Below the pieces are notes generated by a model that was given only the letters and a program-made list of their open reading frames with translations, was not told the origin of the DNA and made no database searches. The position numbers were made by a program, and so were the translations under genes. Below, piece after piece: positions 13 through 5,096 of a stretch of DNA of 5,096 nucleotides. Source of the DNA: Planctomycetota bacterium (GTDB taxonomy: Bacteria > Planctomycetota > Phycisphaerae > WQYP01); NCBI GenBank assembly GCA_021838985.1, contig JAKCCC010000194.1:1-5096 (forward strand), written 5' to 3'. Each line of letters opens with the position of its first letter. The stretch's first letter is position 1.

Positions 13-1335
13 TTATCGGCGCGCCACCTTGCGATAAGCCGCGGCGTAACGTTCAATCGCCTCCGGCCAATCGTGTTTGAACCACGGTATGCCGAAGGTA
101 TGGTTCCCTACCGCCTCGGCATGGGGCAGTGCGCCACGCGGCTGGCGCACGTCGCGGTTGGCGAAGGCGATACGCGTTGGCTTGCCATCGCCGTAGATGT
201 CCGCCTCATTAAATACGGGATGCAGGTGCAGCGGGTAGTTCACGCTGCGGCCCGTCCGCCCGCCCTCCGCATTGACCGCTTCAATAAAGTTTTCGACCGG
301 CAGCCCGCCCAACTCTTCCGGCACATAGTGGCCAACCGGGTTGTACCAGCCCCCCATCGTGCTGCCGGAGCCGATCGCAGTACGGTGGGGTCGAATGCCG
401 GGTGTGCCCGCAAGCAAATCCCAAAATCGGTTCATGGCCCGCTGAATTTCGGCCATCCGCTGCGGATAATGCTTCAGCTGCACCCGGCCCATCGCGGCGC
501 ACGTCTGGTTCATCCGTCCTTTGACGCCGCCCAAGGCCAAACCCAGTGGACTATCGTCCGGGGCGCACAGGTCTTTCAGCTCCCCTATGGTCAGTTCCCG
601 TTTGGTGCGTTCATAATGGGAAAAGGCCAGGGAGCGCTCGTAGATGGACCGGTTATCGGTTACCAGCATGCCGCCTTCCCCGATGGGAAAGCTCTTGCCG
701 GCCATCATCGACATGGCCGCCACGTCGCCGAACGTACCTACTGGCCGACCCCGGTACCGTGCGCCGTGGGCGTGTGAGACATCCTCGATGACTTTAAGTT
801 TGTGTTGGCGGGCGATGGCAAGAATCGCGTCCATATCCGCCGGATGGCCGCAATAGTGCACCACCATAATTGCCTTGGTTCGGCGGCTGATGCGCCTTTC
901 AATGTCCGCCGGGTCCAGGCACAACGTCTGTGGATCGTTATCGGCGAACACCACCGTGGCGCCCAGCGCGAATGCCGGCAGAGCACTGGCCCAGTAGGTC
1001 AGGCTGGGGCAGATCAGCTCATCGCCCCGCTGCAGACCGATAGCCCACATCGCCGCCTGCAGCGCCATCGTTCCGTTCGGGTAGCCCAGCGCGTGGCGAA
1101 CGCCCAGGTAGGCGGCGAATTCGGCTTCGAATTGTTTTGTGATGTCGTTGTTGGACATCGTGCCCGCGCGGAGCACGGCCAGCACGGCCTGTTCATCCTC
1201 CGCCGTCACGATCGGCCAGTGAAACAAGCTCGCATCGCGGTCCGCATCCGGATTGGCGGGTGGCCCGCCGTCAATCGCCAGCGACTGGCTGATGATTTCA
1301 TCGATCGCGGATATGTCTTGTAGAGTCGGCGCCAT
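13..1335 (-). CDS. DegT/DnrJ/EryC1/StrS-family PLP-dependent aminotransferase
   Basis: 440 residues, complete. It is a fold-type I PLP enzyme of the family that transfers an amino group, usually from glutamate or glutamine, to keto-sugars or keto-cyclitols in the cytoplasm. Visible family marks: YPNGTMALQ around 85-93 (cofactor phosphate loop), EDVSHAHGA at 184-192 with D185 placed to pair with the PLP pyridine nitrogen, and AGKSFPIGEGG at 212-222, where K214 should form the Schiff base. The family body starts near residue 39 (HWPIVTAEDE), so about 38 residues are an N-terminal extension; 440 aa is longer than the usual 360-400. No strong Shine-Dalgarno precedes the ATG (only CGGAAA), so translation may depend on the gene upstream. 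It follows the Gfo/Idh gene by 51 nt on the same strand, probably one transcript. The fold is secure. The substrate is unknown: sugar-nucleotide and cyclitol (StsC-like) roles are both possible. Confidence 0.93.
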   Translation of the reverse strand: MAPTLQDISAIDEIISQSLAIDGGPPANPDADRDASLFHWPIVTAEDEQAVLAVLRAGTMSNNDITKQFEAEFAAYLGVRHALGYPNGTMALQAAMWAIGLQRGDELICPSLTYWASALPAFALGATVVFADNDPQTLCLDPADIERRISRRTKAIMVVHYCGHPADMDAILAIARQHKLKVIEDVSHAHGARYRGRPVGTFGDVAAMSMMAGKSFPIGEGGMLVTDNRSIYERSLAFSHYERTKRELTIGELKDLCAPDDSPLGLALGGVKGRMNQTCAAMGRVQLKHYPQRMAEIQRAMNRFWDLLAGTPGIRPHRTAIGSGSTMGGWYNPVGHYVPEELGGLPVENFIEAVNAEGGRTGRSVNYPLHLHPVFNEADIYGDGKPTRIAFANRDVRQPRGALPHAEAVGNHTFGIPWFKHDWPEAIERYAAAYRKVARR

Positions 1336-1386: not shown

Positions 1387-2286
1387 TTAAACCGTTACCG
1401 CCGCCCCCGGCGTCAGGCGCGCCTTGTTGCCGGCTTCCATGATCCGTACGGTTTCGAGCATCTCCGCCGGTGGCACATCCGAACGGCCCGCCGGCAGGGT
1501 TTTTAAGATCGCTTCCAACAGGCTCGCGTAGTAAGGCTTGGTTCCCGAAGCCACGTCCACAAATTGAAATCCTTTTTCACGATGGATCACCGCGCCAAAA
1601 TCACTGTGCGCCTTGCGCAGGCCGCGGTAAGTGGCCAGATGCCCATCCTTCCATTGCATTGTGTAGACCTCGCCGTCCTCGCGGTTGGTCGCCTGAATGG
1701 CGCCGCAGCCCGCGCCCATCGCTCGCACCACCATTTCAATGCCATGCACGCCATACCAGAACAACCCCGGCGCCGCGGCCTCCAGCGACATCGGCCCAAA
1801 GACGTCCACCCCGACGATCGCCCCCTTGGCGTCATCGGCCAGCGCTTTGGCAAAAGCTTCGGCGTAACGCAGGGAGGAGCAACTCATCAGGGGAATCCCG
1901 GCCTGCCCAGCGAGCGCCAGCATCCGTTCGGCGTCCTGACTGGAAGTCGCAAAAGGTTTATCGATGAAAACGGGCTTGCGCCGGCGCGCGACCTTCTCGA
2001 AGAAATCCCGGTGCATGCGCCCGTCGACTTCAGTGATGAAGATCAGATCGCTCTTTTTCGCGACCGCATCGAGGTCCGCCAGAACCTCCACCCCGAATTC
2101 CTTGATCTTGGCCGTGAAACCTTCGATTCGCGACCAGCTTATGGGCCAGTCTTTGGCCCCGCCGGGAAAGGCGCACGTTACGCGTGCTCCGTTGGCCAAG
2201 GCGGCCCGGCCATTCAATATCTCCGTGAAAGCCACGGCGTGGGACGTATCCAGGCCAATCAGGCCAATGCGCAGTGCGGCGCTCAT
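1387..2286 (-). CDS. Gfo/Idh/MocA-family NAD(P)-dependent oxidoreductase
   Basis: 299 residues. This family oxidises or reduces a hydroxyl/keto group of sugars, sugar nucleotides or inositols with NAD(P). The Rossmann start is RIGLIGLDTSHAVAF (6-20): the usual GxGxxG/A is replaced by GLIGLDTSH, a variant subfamily signature. FIDKPF (107-112) is the family's EKP motif with D for E; K110 is the expected catalytic lysine. GVHGIEMV (179-186) supplies H181 where the catalytic histidine normally sits. The protein is short for the family (often 330-400 aa), with a reduced C-terminal sheet domain. The frame stays open upstream to 2631, but I chose the ATG at 2284-2286 because GAGGAG lies 7 nt before it and the Rossmann fold begins directly after it; the upstream translation looks non-protein-like. 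A consensus sigma54 promoter lies about 150 nt upstream. It is first in a likely two-gene unit with the aminotransferase, which suggests making or degrading an amino sugar or aminocyclitol. Confidence 0.9.
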   Translation of the reverse strand: MSAALRIGLIGLDTSHAVAFTEILNGRAALANGARVTCAFPGGAKDWPISWSRIEGFTAKIKEFGVEVLADLDAVAKKSDLIFITEVDGRMHRDFFEKVARRRKPVFIDKPFATSSQDAERMLALAGQAGIPLMSCSSLRYAEAFAKALADDAKGAIVGVDVFGPMSLEAAAPGLFWYGVHGIEMVVRAMGAGCGAIQATNREDGEVYTMQWKDGHLATYRGLRKAHSDFGAVIHREKGFQFVDVASGTKPYYASLLEAILKTLPAGRSDVPPAEMLETVRIMEAGNKARLTPGAAVTV

Positions 2287-2313: not shown

Positions 2314-2434
2314 CAACCGTTCGCCGCGGGCGCCCACTCGCAGCCGCGTGGATCGCAATCCCGCGGCCGTCGCACATGGTGTTCCGTTCTCTGCGGCGCA
2401 GAGTCCAAGTTCGTTCCCTGTCGGATTACGCTGT

Positions 2435-2449
2435 GCAATCGCCGTGCCA
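2435..2449 (-). promoter_or_regulatory. Sigma54 (-24/-12) promoter of the leftward oxidoreductase-aminotransferase unit
   Basis: The minus strand reads C-TGGCACG-GCGA-TTGC-A. Every position of the sigma54 consensus YTGGCACGN4TTGCW is matched, with exactly 10 nt between the invariant GG (2448-2447) and GC (2436-2435). Transcription would start near 2423, leaving about 137 nt of leader before the ATG at 2286. Sigma54 promoters require an AAA+ activator, and an intact one is encoded by the adjacent divergent gene. Confidence 0.82.
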
Positions 2450-2743
2450 GAGACAGGGTACCTCCATGCGTCGAATTCCCATCGCGACGAAGTCATCGCT
2501 ACAACACGCCGTCGCGAAGACACGGAAAATTTTATAAAAGTAACTGTGGAACCTCGTGCTGCTGTTTTGGGAAAGTAGTGCTTTCTTAAGTGATAAATTT
2601 CTGGTTGGCGAAAGCGCCTGAGAGTCGCCACCGAACCCGCAGCACCGGTCTTCGAGCCGTCCGCTGAACGGCTTCCGGACGCGATACCCGAAAGCTAAGG
2701 TGACGAAGCACTCGACGGTTTTCGCGCTCACGGTGGGTCAAGA

Positions 2744-2772
2744 TTGACGAATATGCGGCATCTGCCGATAAT
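2744..2772 (+). promoter_or_regulatory. Sigma70-type promoter of the sigma54-activator gene
   Basis: TTGACG (2744-2749) and GATAAT (2767-2772) are each one base from the TTGACA and TATAAT consensus and are separated by the ideal 17 nt. Transcription would begin around 2778-2781, at or just before the ATG at 2781, so the mRNA would have almost no leader. The -10 box lies entirely inside the inverted repeat at 2763-2778. Confidence 0.65.
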
Positions 2773-2778
2773 TAGGCA
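2763..2778. promoter_or_regulatory. Inverted repeat TGCCGA-TAAT-TAGGCA, candidate activator binding site (copy 1)
   Basis: Arms TGCCGA and TAGGCA match at 5 of 6 positions across a 4-nt spacer. A flanked version of this site, ATCTGCCGAT-N5-GGCAA (2760-2779), recurs at 4249-4268 with 17 of 20 positions identical. Its position over the -10 box and start region of the activator gene would let a bound protein block RNA polymerase. It is also about 350 bp upstream of the leftward sigma54 start, a workable enhancer distance. I infer that the adjacent Fis-type HTH protein binds it. Confidence 0.6.
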
Positions 2779-2780
2779 AA

Positions 2781-4211
2781 ATGGGTGATATGCACGTGGA
2801 AACCATTCTCATTAGCAGCGGGTTTTTTCAGGATACGCTCGCGGAGCTTCAGCGGCATTGGAATGTCGTGGATATTTGTGATCCGCAGGAAGCCCTGGCC
2901 TTTCTGCGAACCGCTTCCCCGGCGCCGGTCGCGGTCACCATTGGATTTGTCCAATCGCCGAAAGTGGATGGCACTGTAGATGATGCTCCAGTTGAGGGCT
3001 ACATGCCCGCCCATGTGACCTTGCGGAAAATCCTGGAACTGGATGCCGATCTGCCTGTCATCATCTCCACGCACCAGAACCATCCAGCCGCCATTGTGCG
3101 ACTGATTAAAGACGGCGCCTTTGACTATGTCGTCGAACCCCCTGGGCCGGAGGCTGGGGCGGAAATACAGCGGTACAATCAAGAATTGCTGGCCGCCCTG
3201 CGCCAGGCCGTGCGCTGGCGCTCGACGGTTCTGGAAAATCGCGAACTTCGCCGAAAACTGGCCCAGGTCAACCATCCCTTGGAACTGCAGAGCCGCTCGC
3301 CGGCGATGGTGCGTATCCTCCAATTGGTAGCCAAAGTTGCACTCACCTCCGTGCCGGTATTAATCACCGGTGAATCCGGCACCGGCAAAGAGGTCATCGC
3401 CCAAAGCATTCACCGTCTTTCGCCGCAACGGCGACATCCGTTCTTGGCCATCAACTGCGGGGCCTTGAGCGATTCGCTGTTGGCCAGCGAATTATTCGGG
3501 CACGTCAAAGGCGCGTTCACCGGCGCGGATCGGGACAATGAAGGCCTGATCCGCCACGCCGGCGAGGGGACATTGTTTCTGGATGAACTTGCTTCGGTAT
3601 CACCAGCCTTCCAAGTCATCCTGCTGCGGGTGTTGGAGCAGCGCGCAGCCCGGCCTGTCGGCGGCCAGCGCGAATATCCGGTGCGCTGTCGCTTTATTGC
3701 CGCTTCCAATCGCGATTTGGGCGAGTTGGTGAAAAAAGGCCAATTTCGGGAAGACCTGTTCTTTCGCCTGCAGGTCGTGCGGCTGGCATTGCCGCCCTTG
3801 CGGGAGAGACGGGAAGATATCCCGGCGCTAAGCCACTACTTTCTGACACAGTTTAATCAAACCTATGGCCGGTCCGTCACGGGTTTTACCCCGGAAGCGA
3901 TGCGTGTTTTGGAACAGCGGGACTGGTCCGGCAATATCCGCGAGTTACGCAATGCGGTGGAGAGGGCGGTGATTCTTTGCGAAGCGACGCGAATTCACCC
4001 CCGCGATCTGGTGGAAAACCCCGGCACGATGGACGAAGTTGGGCCCAGCGACGTAGCCTTCGACGATTACATCCATCTCTGCGGCAGTCGCCTGATCCGT
4101 CAAACGCTGCAGCGATGCCGCGGTAATGTTTCCGAGACCGCCCGGATTTTGCGTATGAAGCGAACCACGCTCCAATCCCGAATGAAGCGCCTGCGGTTGG
4201 TCGCCAGGTGA
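2781..4211 (+). CDS. Sigma54-dependent enhancer-binding regulator (NtrC family) with degenerate receiver
   Basis: 476 residues. NtrC-family activators bind upstream DNA and use ATP to open sigma54-RNA polymerase complexes. Residues 6-140 resemble a CheY-like receiver but lack its chemistry: SS replaces the acidic pair at the first strand (12-13), VAVTIGFVQ (50-58) has no phospho-acceptor Asp, and FDYVVEPP (114-121) has Glu119 for the conserved Lys. A charged helical linker (about 140-165) follows. The AAA+ domain is complete: Walker A GESGTGKE (197-204), GAFTGA (244-249, the sigma54 contact loop), Walker B GTLFLDE (263-269), sensor I N310, arginine-finger region FREDLFFRL (322-330) and sensor II GNIRELRNAVERA (384-396). 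The Fis-type HTH is at 448-471. The start at 2781 sits immediately after the promoter and may be leaderless; Met4 (2790) is an alternative, with GGTGAT directly before it. Activity is probably not set by classical phosphotransfer. Its targets are likely the two flanking sigma54 promoters. Confidence 0.95.
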   Translation: MGDMHVETILISSGFFQDTLAELQRHWNVVDICDPQEALAFLRTASPAPVAVTIGFVQSPKVDGTVDDAPVEGYMPAHVTLRKILELDADLPVIISTHQNHPAAIVRLIKDGAFDYVVEPPGPEAGAEIQRYNQELLAALRQAVRWRSTVLENRELRRKLAQVNHPLELQSRSPAMVRILQLVAKVALTSVPVLITGESGTGKEVIAQSIHRLSPQRRHPFLAINCGALSDSLLASELFGHVKGAFTGADRDNEGLIRHAGEGTLFLDELASVSPAFQVILLRVLEQRAARPVGGQREYPVRCRFIAASNRDLGELVKKGQFREDLFFRLQVVRLALPPLRERREDIPALSHYFLTQFNQTYGRSVTGFTPEAMRVLEQRDWSGNIRELRNAVERAVILCEATRIHPRDLVENPGTMDEVGPSDVAFDDYIHLCGSRLIRQTLQRCRGNVSETARILRMKRTTLQSRMKRLRLVAR

Positions 4212-4251
4212 AGCCGAAAGTCTGAAAAGACGCCCTCGCCATGCCCCAATC

Positions 4252-4267
4252 TGCCGATTTTTCGGCA
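4252..4267. promoter_or_regulatory. Perfect inverted repeat TGCCGA-TTTT-TCGGCA, candidate upstream activating sequence (copy 2)
   Basis: The 6-bp arms are perfectly complementary across a 4-nt spacer, the same geometry as at 2763-2778. It begins 40 nt after the activator stop codon and lies about 320 bp upstream of the predicted start of the sigma54 promoter at 4553-4567, so it is in position for an enhancer. In RNA it could also fold, but without a U tract it is not a convincing terminator. Confidence 0.62.
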
Positions 4268-4384
4268 ACTCAGCTCCCACTAAATGTGGAATGTGGAGCC
4301 GATGTCCTCGTCGCCTGTTGTCCCCATATATAGCCCCCGGTCCGCACGGAGGCGGATCGAGGAGTCGCCTTCGGAGACCTTGCC

Positions 4385-4393
4385 GGGGGGGGG
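4385..4393 (+). repeat. Homopolymer of nine G
   Basis: Nine consecutive G residues lie between the candidate enhancer site and the sigma54 promoter of the prepilin gene. G tracts of this length can slip in replication and can also be miscounted in sequencing. It is outside any gene I support. Confidence 0.9.
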
Positions 4394-4420
4394 AGTTGCC
4401 AAGGGCATATTAACGCACCA

Positions 4421-4467
4421 TTTTCTTGTCGTTTTGACAAGAAATTCTTGCATTTTTTCGCATTTTT
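4421..4467. other. Phased A/T tracts, probable curved DNA between enhancer and promoter
   Basis: T4 (4421-4424), T4 (4432-4435), A3 (4442-4444), T6 (4453-4458) and T5 (4463-4467) recur at about 9.5-12.5 bp spacing, close to one helical turn, and the last two sit in a direct repeat GCATTTTT offset by 10 bp. Such phasing commonly gives static bending. The block lies about midway between the 4252-4267 repeat and the sigma54 promoter, where IHF-induced or intrinsic bends help enhancer-bound activators reach the polymerase. I found no good IHF consensus match. Confidence 0.45.
4422..4444. repeat. Perfect 9-bp inverted repeat TTTCTTGTC-N5-GACAAGAAA
   Basis: The two 9-nt arms (4422-4430, 4436-4444) are exactly complementary around GTTTT. 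It could be a regulator binding site, possibly for a second factor, or a weak AT-rich hairpin followed by T-rich sequence that ends activator transcription. Only three of its nine pairs are G-C, which argues against a strong terminator. Confidence 0.5.
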
Positions 4468-4552
4468 GGCATCTTTCGCGGTTCAACTTCTTCGTGCCCC
4501 CTGGTTTATGCGCAGTTGTATATTGAAATATCCACTAACCGCAAGGCGCTTT

Positions 4553-4567
4553 TGGCATGGCTTTTGC
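4553..4567 (+). promoter_or_regulatory. Sigma54 (-24/-12) promoter of the prepilin gene
   Basis: T-TGGCATG-GCTT-TTGC matches YTGGCACGN4TTGC with one substitution (T for C), and the invariant GG (4554-4555) and GC (4566-4567) have the required 10 nt between them. The base after GC is G rather than the preferred A/T. Transcription would start near 4579, about 103 nt before the prepilin ATG. The next gene upstream encodes a GAFTGA-bearing activator. Confidence 0.72.
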
Positions 4568-4578
4568 GTATTCCGTCC

Positions 4579-4681
4579 TCGTAAGCGGAGCCAGGCCCGA
4601 AATCGGATCGTGTGATCCAGGCTTCGGCGTTCGCGGATGGAACAGTCGCTAAGGCGACGCCCACTTTAGCAGGAGCTGCCG
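4579..4681 (+). promoter_or_regulatory. Predicted structured 5' leader of the prepilin mRNA
   Basis: Between the sigma54 start and the ATG the RNA can form GGATC-GTGT-GATCC (4605-4618), GTCGC-TAAG-GCGAC (4645-4658) and a small GCAG-GAG-CTGC hairpin (4669-4679) that encloses the Shine-Dalgarno. CCAGGC also occurs twice (around 4591-4596 and 4617-4622). I do not recognise a known riboswitch core; the c-di-GMP class I signature is absent. The stems are short and pairing alone is modest evidence. Confidence 0.35.
4671..4675 (+). promoter_or_regulatory. Shine-Dalgarno AGGAG of the prepilin gene
   Basis: AGGAG is followed by 6 nt and the ATG at 4682. It matters because it fixes a start that gives an unusually long 62-residue pre-cleavage leader. 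No other ATG lies in frame between it and the GFTLIE motif. Confidence 0.82.
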
Positions 4682-5096
4682 ATGAACGCTTCCCCAGTTT
4701 CCCCTGTGGTCGGCGTGGTCCCCGTGTCCTCTCGGTCCGGCGCCGCCGCTGTGGCCCTGGCTGTCGATCCGGCCCTCCAAGCCGAATTCGGCCCGCCGGA
4801 GCCAGTGAATTACACCGAGATCAGTTCCGATTTACTGAAAACCGGACACCGAAAAGGGAAATCCGGTTTTACCCTGATTGAGCTGCTGGTAGTGATATCG
4901 ATAATAGCCATTCTTATATCTATATTACTGCCGGCCTTGGCCAAGGCCCGGGAACTGGCCAACCGGGCCGTCTGCATGGCCAATATCCGCGGGATCATCC
5001 AGTCGATGGTCACGTACAGTCAGTCCAACAACGGCGACTTCCCGGTGACCGCGTTCGAGGGGCAGACCTACGGGCTGCGCAATGTCAGAAACCAAC
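4682..5096 (+). CDS. Prepilin/pseudopilin-like secreted protein with long leader (partial)
   Basis: 138 codons are present before the window ends, with no stop. The type IV prepilin cleavage/methylation motif is [11 protein letters not shown] (61-71): a prepilin peptidase would cut after G62 and methylate F63, and E67 is the conserved +5 glutamate. A hydrophobic helix follows to [10 protein letters not shown] (82-91), after which CMANIRG and a [10 protein letters not shown] segment match the pseudopilin-like exported proteins abundant in Planctomycetota and Verrucomicrobiota. The mature protein is expected to be anchored in, or assembled on, the inner membrane and reach the envelope or outside. 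Residues 1-61 are a long Ala/Val/Pro/Ser-rich leader with basic residues only near the end (HRKGK, 56-60); usual leaders are 5-25 residues. A strong AGGAG supports the ATG, so the leader looks genuine. The C-terminal domain is outside the window, so the exact class is unknown. Confidence 0.88.

Follow-up and report, generated by a model that had tools for sequence, protein, structure and literature searches.

A candidate kinase-independent sigma54 module in a planctomycete: an NtrC-family activator, operator-like dyads, and two outward-facing arms

A stretch of 5,096 nucleotides from a Planctomycetota bacterium (contig JAKCCC010000194.1 of assembly GCA_021838985.1; hereafter, the window) raises the question of whether a sigma54 activator gene that is flanked by two outward-facing sigma54 promoters and by inverted repeats forms a self-contained regulatory module. 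From left to right, the window carries genes for a DegT-type enzyme (-), a Gfo/Idh-type oxidoreductase (-), and an NtrC-family activator (+), followed by the start of a gene for a prepilin-motif protein (+). We judge it fairly probable that the locus is a local, kinase-independent sigma54 module, whose activator is predicted to bind operator-like dyads, activate the outward-facing arms, and repress itself; the parts, their order, and their conservation are direct observations, and the regulatory wiring is what we infer from them. A self-contained module with dyads near both arms had been proposed in an initial annotation of this DNA, and the parts, their conservation, and the presence of rpoN support that proposal. 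The features of the window are collected in Table 1.

The window lies on contig C76 of the source genome (G000), a 2.92-Mb assembly of 579 contigs that is 69.5% complete. It was compared with its ortholog L084 in a second genome of the same genus (G001) and with a paralogous locus in each genome (L077 in G000 and L082 in G001); these four loci constitute the genus set, and L083 is the G001 ortholog of the right side of the window. Outside the genus, relatives of the N-terminal part of the activator were found in 4 of 395 other sampled genomes of the class (G033, which belongs to the same class, G132, G299, and G388), and a draw of 392 genomes of the phylum yielded 2 (G471 and G000 itself). Loci L168 and L169 come from G132 and G299, respectively, while L099 and L100 are one Lentisphaerae and one Verrucomicrobia record, which count as one since they are close relatives. 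Five loci with at least 41% identity were analyzed out of 72, the remaining 67 being of weaker identity. The activator family is rare: a search that reaches only relatives with exact words in common returned 6 clusters at E <= 1e-15 in ~5.8 billion proteins, the window's own among them.

A GAFTGA-positive activator had been recognized by the initial annotation, and the open reading frame (ORF), domains, and motifs of such a protein are all present. A Sigma54_activat domain (PF00158, 210.7 bits; residues 171-335) is followed by an AAA lid (341-413) and a Fis-type helix-turn-helix (HTH) domain (PF02954; 437-471), and the sequence contains GESGTGKE, GTLFLDE, and GAFTGA, the last of which aligns with ZraR and NtrC1. 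The GAFTGA-bearing AAA+ domain, the C-terminal Fis-type HTH, the sigma54 gene in the genome, and the nearby -24/-12 elements together are those of an NtrC-family activator. The Pfam scan of the protein returned no receiver domain match. Residues 1-165 model as a receiver fold with five strands (predicted local distance difference test [pLDDT] score of 87.5), and the closest PDB structure to this modeled part is the DctD receiver (E 6.7e-8). In all 10 aligned rows, the active site has no acidic residue (D/E) after strand 1, a Gly at strand 3, and a Glu replacing the Lys after strand 5; in the NtrC1 alignment, an E of the activator stands opposite K. Among the features of a phosphorylatable receiver, the fold is thus present, and the acidic pair, the phospho-Asp, and the Lys are absent. 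According to the model, the activator has a receiver fold without a phosphorylation pocket. Since the acidic residues and the Lys are missing, ordinary phosphorylation is not expected; the activator would work without a histidine kinase, and it may be controlled through a ligand, through a partner protein, or through how much of it is present.

The two -24/-12 elements that had been predicted at the locus were confirmed. The left-facing, full-consensus element is exact in the other three genus loci as well and has one mismatch in five of six further loci tested. The right-facing, one-mismatch element shows two mismatches to the longer pattern ending in W, and both loci of G001, L083 and L082, have its exact form, TGGCACGGCTTTTGC. 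Exact TGGCACGN4TTGC occurs 4 times in G000, the left element being one of these, and 8 times in G001; an exact match that is one of four in the genome led us to reject a chance origin of the left element. Loose elements (<=3 mismatches) are not enriched in the window over shuffles (5 versus a mean of 9.4). In the divergent region of 10 loci, the best element pointing away from the activator was exact in four and had one mismatch in five (0-8 of 500 shuffles as good), whereas the best element pointing toward the activator had 3-5 mismatches. Taken as a divergent module, the arrangement has its genes in 10/10 loci and a sigma54 element between them in 9/10. The genome also encodes the cognate factor, with rpoN on C145 (Sigma54_DBD, 186.7 bits; N-terminal part lost at the contig end), so its absence, which the initial annotation had named as a refutation, can be set aside.

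The inverted repeats differ in part from their first description. A single 16-bp repeat had been reported at 2763-2778 and 4252-4267; both copies are present, but only 13 of 16 letters are alike, and the copy at 2763-2778 is an imperfect dyad. A further dyad at 2745-2760 had been overlooked; with the copy at 2763-2778 it forms the main element, two 16-bp dyads in tandem set against the activator start, and the pair lies at -36 and -18 from that start in all four genus loci. At the place in L083 equivalent to the right dyad, TGCCGGGTTTTCGGCA begins a stretch of 265 bp to the -24 and is separated from the activator stop by 40 bp. Within the window, the repeat gave 6 matches at <=3 mismatches (both strands counted per dyad) against a shuffle mean of 1.04, and 0 of 200 shuffles reached 6. 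With a spacing of 17-19 allowed, the tandem pair was matched by 0-1 of 300 shuffles in 10 of 11 loci. Because the motif had been generalized after the loci were seen, we ran a held-out test, in which a matrix built from eleven genus sites only was scored against 1000 shuffles in the non-genus loci. The shuffles as good per 1000 numbered 0 for L085, L168, L099, and L100, 4 for L174, 23 for L170, and 139 for L169; the weak score of L169 fits as an exception since its activator is split over several frames and its DegT gene is a remnant. The window, tandem-pair, and held-out shuffle tests together led us to reject a chance origin of the dyads. Absence of the repeat from orthologous loci had been offered as another refutation; the dyads in fact persist with the promoters at both orthologous and paralogous loci. 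In L168, as judged by eye, the tandem pair is found at -154/-136; an inverted repeat of ~100 bp at ~8290-8400, which resembles a small mobile element and separates the pair from the activator start, has apparently pushed it away.

Dyads and sigma54 elements are linked at the module. Among the 12 exact elements in G000 and G001, all six at the module (C76 and C216 in G000; C7, with two, C79, and C101 in G001) have a dyad (<=1 mismatch) within 500 bp upstream, whereas none of the other six does, even at <=2 mismatches. When the letters of one 500-bp stretch were shuffled, a dyad appeared in 66/2000 cases at <=1 mismatch and in 724/2000 at <=2. The dyad upstream of the module's sigma54 elements thus holds up at 6/6 versus 0/6 elsewhere in two genomes, a comparison that is not fully independent since the dyad pattern was drawn partly from the same module loci. 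With its one mismatch, the window's right element falls outside these 12; the dyad upstream of it is an exact match. A manual comparison of the 89 elements at <=1 mismatch in G000 with the zero-mismatch dyads placed such a dyad within 500 bp upstream at the two elements of the window alone; in C162 and C205, such a dyad lies 518 and 524 bp upstream of the element. As a genome-wide regulon marker, the repeat performed poorly. The initial annotation had suggested a scan for TGCCGA-N4-TCGGCA, and at <=1 mismatch this gave 14/13 matches versus 13/13 for the reversed control, the only exact matches being the window's two; lacking any excess over the control, the exact palindrome was rejected as such a marker.

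Among the six non-module exact elements, one precedes a PEP-CTERM gene and one a type III glutamine synthetase gene in G000, and both appear by eye to have counterparts in G001; the latter element lies at 3544-3558 of L079 (G000:C386), and the G001 gene with the same start is in L193 (G001:C9). In L196 (G001:C127), a TGTCATTTTGACA dyad, with a 3-bp spacer versus 6 bp in the module dyad, lies upstream of an exact element, and the gene there appears by eye to encode a small protein resembling a small heat-shock protein.

Table 1. Coordinates and supporting details of the features of the window, with functions predicted
Feature	Position	Strand	Details
DegT/DnrJ/EryC1/StrS-type pyridoxal phosphate enzyme, left arm gene 2	13..1335	-	PF01041, 270.6 bits
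Gfo/Idh/MocA-type oxidoreductase, left arm gene 1	1387..2286	-	PF01408, 41 bits
Left sigma54 -24/-12 element TGGCACGGCGATTGCA	2434..2449	-	Exact TGGCACGN4TTGCA; 148 bp before oxidoreductase start
Sigma70-like promoter TTGACG-17-GATAAT of activator	2744..2772	+	Predicted, 10/12 matches; overlapped by both dyads
Upstream dyad of tandem pair TGACGAATATGCGGCA	2745..2760	.	Conserved in L084; letters changed in L077 and L082
Downstream dyad of tandem pair TGCCGATAATTAGGCA	2763..2778	.	18 bp from first dyad; adjoins start codon
NtrC-family sigma54 activator	2781..4211	+	ORF, 476 aa; degenerate receiver 1-165, AAA+ domain, Fis-type HTH
Right dyad TGCCGATTTTTCGGCA	4252..4267	.	41 bp after activator stop; 285 bp before right -24
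Right sigma54 element TGGCATGGCTTTTGC	4553..4567	+	One mismatch to TGGCACGN4TTGC
Prepilin-motif protein, right arm gene 1	4682..5096	+	PF07963, 35.6 bits; truncated by window end

In the mechanism that we propose, the activator would be transcribed from TTGACG-17-GATAAT, bind the tandem dyads at its own start, and loop to the sigma54 polymerase, thereby switching on the left operon (Gfo/Idh, DegT, second DegT, and amidohydrolase). In this genus, the dyad behind the activator gene would serve the right promoter and switch on the prepilin arm. Because the dyads overlap TTGACG-17-GATAAT, negative autoregulation may be expected. The hexamers and their spacing were also seen by eye in L077, L082, and L084; the sigma70-like scan of the window gave 4 such sites versus a shuffle mean of 2.2 and by itself proves nothing.

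Several observations weigh against this mechanism. The genus dyads lie 246-483 bp from the left -24, which is far for an enhancer. The right dyad stands alone, and a hairpin is an alternative reading of it. L168 has no recognizable sigma54 element (best, 3 mismatches; 101/500 shuffles as good). When the spacing of the tandem pair is fixed at 18, only 7 of 11 loci remain at 0/300 shuffles, with L099, L100, and L170 needing 19, and L170 is weak in the held-out matrix, the sole test independent of the generalization of the motif. In addition, the generalized dyad pattern is found at about twice the frequency of its reversed control across the genomes (16 versus 7 places in G000, 23 versus 12 in G001), and the module holds just 2 of these places in G000 and 2 in G001, the others being unexplained.

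The single right dyad brings in the strongest alternative, which we nevertheless consider unlikely: only the left arm would belong to the activator, another sigma54 activator would serve the prepilin promoter, and the right dyad would be a leftover or a hairpin terminator. Further sigma54 activators are indeed encoded in the genome (e.g., on C135 and C560), the prepilin arm is seen in the genus only, and the right dyad, which closely follows the activator stop in both the window and L083, folds in the window as a hairpin of -9.7 kcal/mol that 0 of 200 shuffles equaled; L083 lacks a counterpart of an extra one-mismatch match that the window has 81 bp upstream of its right -24. However, the hairpin lacks a T run behind it and is absent from the output of the terminator scan. 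At the paralogous locus of G001, moreover, an exact-pattern dyad that folds poorly lies 1296 bp past the activator stop, at a distance of 74 bp from the right -24 downstream of it. All three right arms seen retain the right sigma54 element, and it is at this element that the similarity between paralogs begins.

Distance bears on the second alternative, to which we assign a low probability, namely that the dyads at the activator start serve autorepression only, or are part of the sigma70 promoter, and that the left arm is activated via other sites. It would account for the overlap with TTGACG-17-GATAAT, the spacing of which appears by eye to be the same in all four genus loci, and for the long interval to the left -24 in the genus. 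The interval is also long in L100, where the dyads lie 465 bp from the -24. In L085, L174, and L170, however, the dyads stand 43-70 bp before the -24 (L170 has another one-mismatch match at 20 bp), the same motif precedes right promoters that are distant from the activator start, and the six other exact sigma54 elements are devoid of it.

The left arm of the proposed module is well supported, and it is this arm whose conservation runs deep. In all 10 loci with flanking sequence, the gene divergent from the activator encodes a Gfo/Idh, DegT, or amidohydrolase protein (in L169, a DegT remnant followed by an amidohydrolase); the 11th locus, L099, has only 292 bp before the activator and stands outside this count. 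L084 and L170 carry the full series Gfo/Idh, DegT, second DegT, amidohydrolase in this order, and L168 has its first three genes. The oxidoreductase is 93% identical in L084 and 50-52% identical in G132 and G388, in both of which it diverges from the same activator, and the DegT-type enzyme is 91% identical in L084 of G001, 70.5% in G132, and 61% in G388 and L100. Searches of solved structures gave no substrate assignment for the DegT, Gfo/Idh, or amidohydrolase enzymes, one of them returning 0 matches. The left operon most likely serves sugar or amino-sugar metabolism. At L169 801-2282 (G299), the activator and DegT genes are decaying, and the locus retains the amidohydrolase gene along with a sigma54 element that has one mismatch.

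The right arm is moderately supported. Relatives of the prepilin-motif protein were found in L083 (69% identity over 142 aa) and L082, and tblastn over 13 loci and L174 detected no prepilin arm outside the genus loci (window, L083, and L082); the sequence of L077 stops before the prepilin region. A DNA search with this arm in 29 genomes gave non-genus matches of only 20-53 bp (E 0.003-0.01). Beyond the prepilin gene, the L083 arm encodes an 888-aa protein with a GH123_N match, a Gfo/Idh protein (weak, 22.6 bits against a cut-off of 24), and an amidohydrolase truncated at the contig end, and NCBIfam gave no match for two of the secreted proteins of the right arms. In the alignment of the window with the paralogous L082, the stretch between the -24 and the ATG has 113 of 137 columns identical, and the 300 bp upstream of the -24 have 130 of 320. 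The leader from the right element to the prepilin gene (4568-4684 in the window) is 82-87% identical between paralogs and orthologs, and the DNA upstream of the element is unlike between paralogs; single-sequence folds of this leader gave no common structure.

The activator is duplicated within the genus. The two activators of G000 are 72% identical; in blocks of 60 bases, their DNA shows 49-68% identity over the four opening blocks (receiver-like) and 51-68% over the five closing ones (DNA-binding), with 66-91% in between. The dyads are mostly TGCCG/CGGCA at locus 1 and TGACG/CGTCA or TGTCA at locus 2; that the dyad letters follow the HTH divergence between loci is only a suggestion. In the two blocks before the contig break, the G001 copies are 98 and 100% identical, compared with 86 and 66% for the G000 pair, a near-identity that suggests gene conversion or an assembly effect. 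By eye, P0003 looks like a chimera of the two activator types, and the Gfo/Idh gene is apparently disrupted at the paralogous locus in both genomes (L077 and L082).

A broader reading, which we put forward tentatively and with more doubt than belief, is that this family of blind-receiver activators, packed with a tandem operator and an amino-sugar-type operon into a closed cassette, travels among lineages of planctomycetes, Verrucomicrobia, and Lentisphaerae. In the genus, the cassette would have been duplicated, its operators would have drifted with the DNA-binding domains, and a second arm, with the prepilin and a secreted glycosidase-like protein, would have been captured. Horizontal transfer of the module stays a guess because the activator tree is long-branched, with only 4 of 10 inner branches well supported; in this tree, which was built without the intended outgroup rows, the rows P0002, P0004, P0005, and P0006 were taken from the gapped alignment file and the G471 row starts two codons early.

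Pairs of an activator and a local operon are of a known kind, and so are activators whose receiver is degenerate. In PrpR/prpBCDE, NorR/norVW, and RtcR/rtcBA, for instance, the gene of an NtrC-family activator diverges from a single local sigma54 operon, and these systems share with the present module a GAFTGA-bearing AAA+ domain and a Fis-type HTH beside a divergent sigma54 promoter and operator dyads. Here, by contrast, the sensor is a receiver fold without phosphorylation residues, the tandem 16-bp operator adjoins the start of the activator gene, and the other side carries a further outward arm. Activators of the FleQ/FlrA type have atypical receivers, FleQ having lost its phosphorylation residues, and these proteins resemble the activator in combining a receiver fold, AAA+, and HTH and in being thought to need no cognate kinase; unlike them, the activator is not flagellar by context, and its nearest solved receiver is that of DctD. 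COG2165, which we take to comprise prepilin-like genes, is of interest for the right arm. Part of the literature on FleQ describes its layout as receiver, AAA+, and HTH (PMC9303241). A broad survey of sigma54 control finds COG2165 enriched among the sigma54-linked genes of Planctomycetia (PMC12316311), which parallels the prepilin-like gene behind a sigma54 element in this planctomycete. That survey is statistical and gives enriched gene groups for Planctomycetota; the parts that bear on this comparison name no operator or activator of the window's kind, and its main text does not contain the words pilin, PEP-CTERM, Gfo, or DegT (PMC12316311). The combination of parts seen here was not found in the literature searched, which is weak evidence as most subscription papers were outside its scope.

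The initial annotation had also likened the locus to the control of PEP-CTERM genes by PrsR/RpoN, a comparison that is not supported. It is highly improbable that PrsR-type regulation of PEP-CTERM and matrix genes is the role of the activator, and we rejected this identity: TIGR02915 is the activator's best NCBIfam match and an exact sigma54 element does precede one PEP-CTERM gene in this genome, but the score of 325.2 bits falls below the cut-off of 502.6, no protein of G000 or G001 exceeds that cut-off, and the dyads at the PEP-CTERM promoter are of another kind, GGTACATTWTGTACC (three copies in G000 and two similar ones in G001). These dyads, which lie at 1953-2022 of L078 (G000:C240) with the element at 2134-2148 and have two similar GGTACARAATGTACC counterparts in L190 (G001:C4), are likely the enhancer of a different activator. 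The window contains no kinase gene, although no search aimed at PrsK was made. In the parts of the PrsK/PrsR reports that bear on this comparison, a sigma54 element with an upstream activator motif is the shared feature, and PrsR differs in having a cognate kinase and PEP-CTERM targets (PMC1569441, PMC9850573); the sigma54-associated PEP-CTERM motif is there reported for Proteobacteria only (PMC1569441).

Sigma54 control outside Proteobacteria is thinly charted, and the module offers a concrete, predicted activator-operator pair with a testable code. It includes a natural duplication with drifting operators as well as a natural decaying copy (L169), and it ties uncharacterized Gfo/Idh-DegT-amidohydrolase operons to a predicted dedicated regulator, whose receiver fold must rely on a switch different from ordinary phosphorylation. 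Should the cassette reading be true, surface display and sugar metabolism would be placed under one kinase-free switch.

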